This document shows, piece after piece, positions 32,183 through 33,350 of a stretch of DNA of 64,000 nucleotides. Source of the stretch: Verrucomicrobiia bacterium (GTDB lineage Bacteria > Verrucomicrobiota > Verrucomicrobiia > Limisphaerales > DSYF01); the NCBI GenBank assembly GCA_035765895.1, contig DASTWL010000039.1:62001-126000 (forward strand), written 5' to 3'. Each line of letters begins with the position of its first letter. Position 1 is the stretch's first letter. Made by a program: the position numbers and the translations under genes. The notes beneath the pieces were generated by a model, which made no database searches, was not told the origin of the DNA, and saw only the letters and a list, made by a program, of their open reading frames with translations.

Positions 32183-32992
32183 TTAAGCGGTCTGGGTGTT
32201 GGCCTGGTCCAGCTCCCAAGCGTTGGTTTCCGGGGCAGGACTCAGGCTGGGCGCGGGCTCGGCCTGCGGGCCTCGGCCAATTTCGATGTCGCCAAATGCC
32301 TCGGATTGCAGGGCCACCAGCACTTTGAGGCGGATCAACTCCAGCATGGCCAGAAAGGTGACCACCACCTCGGTGCGGCTCGTGGCGTTCGCAAACAATT
32401 CGGAGAACTTCAGGCGCGACTGGGTGGAAATGGAGCGGCGCAACAAATCAATCTTTTCGCTCACCGACCATTTGTCCTCAAAGATTTCTCGCAGATCCTC
32501 CTTCTTCTCGCTGAATCGCTTGAGGATCGTGCTGACGGCATTGACCAGGTCGAAAATCGAGGCTTCGGCCTTGTTGGCCGGCGCATCCCGGTCAAATTCG
32601 AGCTTGGGCGGGAGGCGCGGGAAGATGGCCCCCTGACGGATTTCCATTTCCTGCAACCGGGCGGCGGCGTCCTTGAATTTCTTGTATTCGACGAGCTGCC
32701 GGATCAGTTCCCAGCGCGGATCATCGCCGTCCTCCTCGCCTTCGGTTTCGACCTGCTGCTCCTTCGGCAGCAGTTCACGGCTCTTGATATACATGAGGGT
32801 CGCGGCCATGACGACGAATTCGCCGGCGATTTCCAAATCGAGCATCCGCATCGTCTCGATGTATTCGATGAACTTGGTGGCGAGCTGGGTCAAATTGACT
32901 TCATAAATGTCAACCTCCTCCTTCTTAATGAGATAAAGAAGGAGGTCGAGCGGACCTTCGAAGACCTCGAACTGGACTTTGTATTCAGCCAT
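32183..32992 (-). CDS. scpA: Segregation and condensation protein ScpA
   Basis: A 269-residue kleisin that bridges the SMC heads. The N-terminal SMC-binding helix region reads YKVQFEVFEGPLDLLLYLI, followed by EEVDIYEVNLTQLATKF and EFVVMAATLMYIKSRELLP. The C-terminal winged helix (VVTFLAMLELIRLKVLVALQ) binds the other SMC head. ATG 32992 is the conventional start. The same frame stays open to 33202, with a strong AAGGAGG and a GTG in the region of the candidate small RNA; that 66-residue extension has no family look, so it is left out, but it is a real alternative. Confidence 0.92.
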   Translation of the reverse strand: MAEYKVQFEVFEGPLDLLLYLIKKEEVDIYEVNLTQLATKFIEYIETMRMLDLEIAGEFVVMAATLMYIKSRELLPKEQQVETEGEEDGDDPRWELIRQLVEYKKFKDAAARLQEMEIRQGAIFPRLPPKLEFDRDAPANKAEASIFDLVNAVSTILKRFSEKKEDLREIFEDKWSVSEKIDLLRRSISTQSRLKFSELFANATSRTEVVVTFLAMLELIRLKVLVALQSEAFGDIEIGRGPQAEPAPSLSPAPETNAWELDQANTQTA

Positions 32993-33102
32993 GACGCCCC
33001 AACCGGTAAACGCGGGACGGTGGATGCTATGCCGGGGCCGACCGGCTTGGCAACGCCGGAGCACGATTTGGCTGTCCCATTTTCTGTCCCCCGACGAACC
33101 AG

Positions 33103-33131
33103 TTGACAGGGGGCGGTGGGGAAACATAAGT
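33103..33131 (+). promoter_or_regulatory. Promoter of the candidate small RNA
   Basis: A perfect TTGACA (33103-33108), 17 bp and ATAAGT (33126-33131; CATAAG with a 16-bp spacer is also possible). The predicted start, 33138-33140, coincides with the first base of the inverted repeat below. Confidence 0.45.
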
Positions 33132-33139
33132 TGAAAACA

Positions 33140-33208
33140 GTTCGGGTGGCAGCACGTTTCTTCAGCGGGGTTCCCCACCCCCACCTCCTTGGCGTCTGCC
33201 ACCCGAAC
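33140..33208 (+). ncRNA. Candidate structured small RNA with paired ends and anti-SD segment
   Basis: A 69-nt segment whose ends are a perfect 13-bp inverted repeat: GTTCGGGTGGCAG (33140-33152) and CTGCCACCCGAAC (33196-33208). Inside, GGGGT (33167-33171) can pair with ACCCC (33177-33181) around a TCCCC loop. CACCTCCTT (33182-33190) matches the anti-Shine-Dalgarno end of bacterial 16S rRNA and is left unpaired in this fold. A promoter ends just upstream and TTTT occurs at 33212-33215. The conserved apical bases of SRP RNA are missing. On the opposite strand the same bases give a perfect AAGGAGGTG ahead of an in-frame GTG for scpA, so a leader role for scpA is the alternative. Confidence 0.45.
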
Positions 33209-33230
33209 GCAGTTTTGGCCGCCGTGAGGC

Positions 33231-33273: not shown

Positions 33274-33350
33274 GGGGGTGTAGCTCAATTGGTTAGAGCG
33301 CTGCCCTGTCACGGCAGAGGTTACGGGTTCGAGCCCCGCCACTCCCGCCA
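33274..33350 (+). tRNA. tRNA-Asp (anticodon GTC)
   Basis: Acceptor GGGGGTG/CACTCCC (one G-T pair), D-arm GCTC/GAGC, anticodon stem CTGCC/GGCAG with loop CTGTCAC (GTC), T-loop TTCGAGC, discriminator G and encoded CCA. The outermost T-stem pair is A-C instead of the usual G-C, a mild oddity. Confidence 0.92.

Follow-up and report, generated by a model that had tools for sequence, protein, structure and literature searches.

The window analysed here, a stretch of 64,000 nucleotides from a bacterium of the order Limisphaerales (Verrucomicrobia subdivision 3), carries at positions 33103-33216 a short element located between the divergent gene scpA and a tRNA-Asp gene (Table 1). The initial annotation, made from the sequence alone, had proposed that a consensus TTGACA promoter starts a 69-nt segment closed by a perfect 13-bp inverted repeat and followed by T residues, the interior of which equals the core of the 16S rRNA tail and stays unpaired in the simplest fold. 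Most of this description held. The inverted repeat is perfect and bounds 69 nt, the predicted fold of this segment (-40.6 kcal/mol, z -6.4) leaves CACCUCCUU unpaired, and the corresponding DNA, CACCTCCTT, matches the 16S 3' tail of the own genome (GGCTGGATCACCTCCTTTCTA) in 9 of 9 bases. The promoter claim held only in part: the TTGACA was confirmed, but the -10 is poor, its best placement, TAAGTT, agreeing with the consensus in 3 of 6 bases, and this promoter was absent from the output of a generic promoter scan. The T residues are present as well, even though they are weaker than had been stated, with only TTTT in the window copy.

Table 1. Features of the element and its neighbours, and copies in small genomes (window positions unless a locus is named)
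Feature	Position	Strand	Remarks
scpA, divergent neighbour	32183..32992	-	True start ATG 32992; conserved start MxxYKVxFEVFEGPLDLLLYL in relatives
-35 hexamer TTGACA	33103..33108	+	Exact match; also frequent upstream of the copies of relatives
Probable -10 TAAGTT, weak	33127..33132	+	Spacer 18; 7 nt before the hairpin
Small RNA gene (very likely; transcription inferred)	33140..33216	+	Start at or near 33140; stem doubles as terminator; covariance-model and order-wide matches
Outer stem, 5' arm GTTCGGGTGGCAG	33140..33152	+	Perfect 13-bp inverted repeat; covaries with the 3' arm
Inner stem, 5' strand ACGUU	33154..33158	+	Pairs with GGCGU (33191-33195) in the fold; conserved pairs including U-G wobbles
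Apical hairpin GGGG-UUCCCCA-CCCC	33167..33181	+	C-rich loop; consensus structure
Unpaired anti-Shine-Dalgarno strand CACCUCCUU (DNA CACCTCCTT)	33182..33190	+	Same bases as the 16S tail of the own genome
Outer stem, 3' arm CTGCCACCCGAAC	33196..33208	+	Other half of the perfect 13-bp inverted repeat
3' U-tract TTTT	33213..33216	+	Four bases beyond the stem; relatives have longer ones
tRNA-Asp(GTC)	33274..33350	+	Gene in its own right; the usual next gene downstream within the order
Small-genome copies	L111:2463-2530, L088:414-471, L134:3118-3183, L110:2456-2517		Single copies

When 324 bp of the locus were compared with 57 relatives, most sampled families of Limisphaerales proved to have a 67-nt core, 88-99% identical, between flanks that are not conserved, and since this core is kept at such identity across the order, chance can be excluded as the origin of the window element. 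Within the order, the family is present in 124 of the 146 sampled genomes, with 1-10 copies in each (80 of 87 if only genomes of good quality are counted); 53 genomes have two or more copies, and the own genome has a single one. The covariance search in relatives that the initial annotation had suggested as a check found homologues across the order and in other classes. Short matches to the core in another class of the phylum sample proved to belong to complete homologues whose stems differ throughout in sequence, and those outside the order include contigs of Kiritimatiellae/Kiritimatiellia (L107 and L227 carry the same sequence). A covariance model from the other class, built from 11 members, all of them outside Limisphaerales, scores window positions 33141-33207 at 55.2 bits (E 5.9e-10, in 184 kb). 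With the combined covariance model R2, which also gave the counts within the order, members were found in 34 of the 388 genomes of a phylum-wide sample, which drew only one other member of Limisphaerales, and most other orders of the window's class lack the family. Three divergent members of the same class (G224, G070, and G315) share the GATTCGGGT stem and miss the CCCC hairpin, with an anti-Shine-Dalgarno (anti-SD) segment reduced to CUCCUU or UUCCUU. At L230, L231, and L232, in other families of the class, divergent members retain the stem together with C/UUCCUUGGCG and have lost the CCCC apical hairpin.

Beyond these lineages, four genomes of 0.7-0.8 Mb (G633-G636), two of them titled Taylorbacteria/Patescibacteria, have one copy each, whereas only 1 of 380 genomes of the Patescibacteria phylum has the family; horizontal transfer is the likely origin of these copies, misbinning not being excluded. 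The copy in L111 lies amid a gene for a DUF6159 membrane protein and an IS110 transposase gene, about 270 nt upstream of the transposase. In IMG/VR, one phage contig carries a member (L360:6406-6470, 54.8 bits), located between structural genes and on the opposite strand, the contig encoding a terminase, a portal protein, a protease, and a major head protein; apart from this contig, the plasmid and phage collections searched for the family gave no match. No match was found either in Rfam 15, for the window element at E<=1 or for ten other loci of the family at E<=10.

Regarding the genomic neighbourhood, a tRNA-Asp gene follows on the same strand, 54-376 nt downstream, in 50 of the 82 testable copies of the order type, and scpA is the divergent neighbour of some of them. 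A second type of copy (TTTGATTCGGG) is located elsewhere. In other classes, 24 of 33 nearest upstream genes and 22 of 31 nearest downstream genes are encoded on the strand opposite to the RNA, so that it is not the leader of a downstream gene. Tandem copies occur in G303 (L236:1010-1216), where they are nearly identical, 140 bp apart, and each has its own upstream region, and also in L044 and L141. In L282, a gene for bS21 (rpsU), whose start is cut off by the contig end, lies about 1.4 kb from the sRNA copy. In the window, GGGACAGAAAATGGGACAG occurs once, just upstream of the sRNA promoter (33072-33090, minus strand), and it resembles a RAYT/REP-type end; CTGTCCC stretches similar to it flank the sRNA copies in L065 and L107. 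The scpA mRNA has a near-perfect inverted repeat, CCTCCTTCTT...AAGAAGGAGG (32913-32946, minus strand), formed by an internal SD-like AAGGAGGAGG and its complement, and the 44 nt at the scpA start (32950-32993) show 79-95% DNA conservation across the order.

The structure of the family is supported by compensatory changes, another check that had been proposed. Among 102 aligned members (92 distinct), pairing is kept in 89.7% of cells and double changes occur at 17 of the 22 pairs, with 252 double-changed cells against 74.4 +/- 6 in shuffled alignments and 24-78 in slid controls; this alignment was fitted to the model, which makes the statistic slightly favourable. RNAalifold, run on the likewise model-fitted A3 alignment, agreed in the outer stem, the pairs of the inner stem, and the apical hairpin, in which GGGA/UCCC and GGGC/GCCC occur within the family as compensatory changes. 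UCCUU shows essentially no variation among the 102 members, in contrast to the freely changing stems; this invariance is partly ascertained, since one of the locus sets, and not the others, was fetched with a pattern containing the anti-SD. The question of whether CCTCC stays unpaired can also be answered: the CCUCCU segment is open by folding, with a mean unpaired probability of 0.90 across these members. Taken with the 9-nt match to the own 16S, this openness meets the criterion of an open anti-SD seed kept by selection.

Three lines of evidence agree on the plus strand as the transcribed one. The standard pairs of the family include 326 GU cells against 26 AC cells, an excess that identifies the plus strand as the RNA. 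Of 147 distinct copies, 81 have an exact TTGACA in the 70 nt before them and none has one when the opposite strand is read from the other side, and a run of four or more T within 12 nt after the stem is found in 103 of these copies, compared with 8 on the other strand. The aligned copies of the order have TTGACA/TAnnnT directly upstream and T-runs downstream, and at the place of the weak -10 of the window the relatives have TAAAAT or TATAAT, ending mostly 7-8 nt before the stem, for which reason transcription should begin at the stem base. On the criterion that the RNA has a promoter and a terminator of its own, the flanks with such features are thus strongly enriched on one strand, in the absence of transcript data. 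Comparative evidence therefore shows a family with a defined structure and strand, an invariant and open anti-SD, and promoter- and terminator-like flanks. The small-RNA reading of the initial annotation is supported by conservation, compensatory changes, wobble asymmetry, the one-strand promoter and T-run, and the invariant anti-SD, and we consider it very likely (about 0.93) that the window element is a real structured sRNA of the plus strand, its transcription being inferred.

The anti-SD of this RNA occurs in a genome that hardly uses SD sequences. In the 1.26 Mb covered (loci L372-L431 and the window), SD 4-mers precede 11.0% of first ATGs against 10.4% after shuffling, whereas E. coli, by the same crude counting, reaches 51% against 11%. 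Most ribosomal-protein genes with homology-fixed starts lack an SD, and only 13 ORFs have a 6-nt SD match. Despite this near-absent enrichment, the own 16S keeps CACCUCCUU; SD scarcity with a conserved CCUCC has already been reported for some Verrucomicrobia (PMC10783764). Carriers from other classes show an SD usage of 23-35%, against 12-15% after shuffling. A link between the presence of the sRNA and the loss of SDs was considered and rejected, because these carriers use SDs moderately and some SD-poor genomes do not have the RNA. As for targets, each genome has about one perfect CCAAGGAGGU-N3-9-AUG site, close to the chance expectation, and these sites point to no evident conserved gene; several of the CCAAGGAGGU-before-AUG matches are antisense to sRNA copies, and genomic CGCCAAGGAGGT sites are mostly not beside start codons. 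The RNA had been suggested to bind ribosome sites of many mRNAs; binding is inferred, and a small set of targets is to be expected, since the own genome has almost no SD usage.

The explanation that we favour is a stand-alone, trans-acting RNA of about 70-77 nt that would be transcribed from its own promoter on the plus strand and would end at its own stem and U-tract. Its long outer stem, free in sequence, holds an asymmetric internal loop and a short apical hairpin, keeping two putative pairing seeds open: the 3' strand of the internal loop, CACCUCCUU, and the C-rich apical loop, UUCCYC. These seeds would pair with purine-rich SD segments of particular mRNAs, and this pairing would block or, less likely, remodel the initiation of translation. 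As SD sequences are rare in the own genome, the seed would reach few mRNAs. Pairing with mRNA is the likeliest mechanism because an open and invariant anti-SD, variable stems, and multiple copies are also found in the alpha-r14/cuckoo RNAs. We give it only a modest advantage (about 0.6), since the pairing itself is inferred, as are repression as its outcome and the participation of any chaperone. Against it speaks that no conserved target emerged from the pattern search and that the scarcely enriched SD motifs of the own genome leave little general substrate. It is also possible to object that protein-binding functions would leave the same sequence pattern, and that the divergent G224, G070, and G315 may tell against it by keeping only part of the anti-SD and no CCCC hairpin.

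Several known RNAs resemble this family. The alpha-r14/cuckoo sRNAs of Rhizobiales, such as NfeR1, are multi-copy RNAs with hypervariable stems and an ultraconserved unpaired anti-SD, whose motifs repress mRNAs in trans at translation initiation regions (PMC10746234, PMC7143759). The ultraconserved anti-SD, the hypervariable stems, and the several copies are shared with the Verrucomicrobiota sRNA, a likeness of kind rather than homology. Cuckoo RNAs have three hairpins, each with an unpaired CCUCCUCCC, whereas the Verrucomicrobiota sRNA consists of one outer hairpin with a nested apical hairpin and carries ACCUCCUUGG once, in the internal loop, plus UUCCYC; moreover, there is no sequence match, the phylum is different, and there is no Rfam hit, although the existence of a cuckoo model in Rfam is unconfirmed. 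The 6C RNA of Actinomycetales is also a conserved small RNA with C-rich single-stranded loops (PMC4046766), features found in the Verrucomicrobiota sRNA. However, it is characterized by two stem-loops with six or more C each, which the Verrucomicrobiota sRNA does not have, and there is no covariance match. In staphylococci and Bacillus, C-rich regions of the sRNAs IsrR, RoxS, and FsrA pair with SD sequences, and in staphylococci the specificity of these seeds is aided by the rarity of G-rich stretches apart from SDs (PMC9410917). By the same argument, an anti-SD seed would be selective in an SD-poor transcriptome, even though these multi-stem RNAs of AT-rich Firmicutes, with a separate terminator, have no homology to the family described here. 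Lastly, OLE RNA is a ligand of bS21 and imitates a portion of the 16S tail region (PMC12054373), but this RNA of Bacillota has about 600 nt and mimics the ASD-SD duplex. The Verrucomicrobiota family is thus a new one, absent from Rfam 15 and akin by kind to anti-SD sRNAs while unrelated to the known ones; its expression, targets, and partners are inferred.

The main rival to mRNA pairing, which we regard as unlikely, is that the RNA mimics the rRNA tail and titrates the proteins holding it (bS21/bS18/bS6, or assembly factors) instead of binding mRNA; such titration would change the number of ribosomes able to read SDs. In its favour, the layout of a hairpin followed by ACCUCCUU resembles h45 and the anti-SD at the 16S 3' end, and the lineage is SD-scarce and yet its 16S keeps CCUCC. 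In SD-scarce Bacteroidia, bS21/bS18/bS6 sequester the 16S tail and rpsU is regulated through it (PMC9976891), and this sequestration lends support to the idea, as does the binding of bS21 to OLE RNA (PMC12054373). However, the family is also present in classes with moderate SD usage, and neither the h45 sequence nor the GGAUC before the anti-SD is copied. A pairing of the apical-loop UUCC with the GGAA loop of h45 was also considered and dropped, as the As of this loop are normally dimethylated. Nor do we find it probable that the RNA is a C/U-rich decoy or sponge for other proteins (for example Hfq, a cold-shock protein, or Rho), with a merely coincidental likeness to the anti-SD. The three loop segments are indeed all pyrimidine-rich and the divergent class members retain the anti-SD only in part, but an exact match of 8-9 nt to the 16S tail is kept across classes despite freely varying stems, which a general affinity for pyrimidines can hardly account for.

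It is highly improbable that the element is a REP/MITE-like repeat, mobile DNA, or simply a terminator hairpin, without any function as an RNA. Such a view could invoke the multiple copies of many genomes, the perfect inverted repeat, and the sporadic copies in distant small genomes, one of them beside an IS110 transposase, and on a phage contig. Contrary to the many near-identical copies that would define a REP or MITE, the own genome has one copy, and the 13-mer arm searched in it gave only chance-level matches, fewer than the reversed control; within one genome, copies differ in the stem and not in the seed; the GU/AC asymmetry, promoter, and T-run are strand-specific; and the anti-SD loop is better kept than the stem, the reverse of what a terminator would show. 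Finally, a cis-acting leader can be all but excluded, whether a minus-strand one for scpA (or an extension of its N-terminus) or a plus-strand one for tRNA-Asp. The AAGGAGG and the GTG in frame with scpA to which the initial annotation had pointed are present on the minus strand, and tRNA-Asp lies 67 nt downstream in the window and follows in many relatives. Nevertheless, the scpA alternative failed: the frame between the hairpin and the conserved ATG has stops in nearly all relatives examined, so that the extended N-terminus was rejected, most copies are not beside scpA, and the strand tests exclude a minus-strand RNA. Many copies have neither scpA nor tRNA-Asp alongside, and a promoter-like sequence lies between the sRNA and tRNA-Asp.

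Our preferred reading thus remains a trans-acting anti-SD sRNA. A bolder one, which we only raise as a possibility, is that a family of RNAs mimicking the 16S tail controls the SD-anti-SD step itself, in bacteria that have given up most SD sequences and retain the anti-SD; it may have spread across Verrucomicrobiota and been picked up by phages and small-genome bacteria, and competition for SD-bearing mRNAs or for tail-holding proteins might decide when the few SD-bearing genes are read.

A survey from 2022 lists, for the PVC group as a whole, 8 distinct sRNAs (PMC9029176). The family described here would add a structured sRNA absent from Rfam to a phylum with hardly any described sRNAs, and the segment of it that varies least copies the ribosomal anti-SD, in a lineage where most mRNAs have no SD. 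This makes it possible to test what purpose the universally kept anti-SD serves in bacteria with few SDs, and whether RNAs are able to make use of it or to control it.
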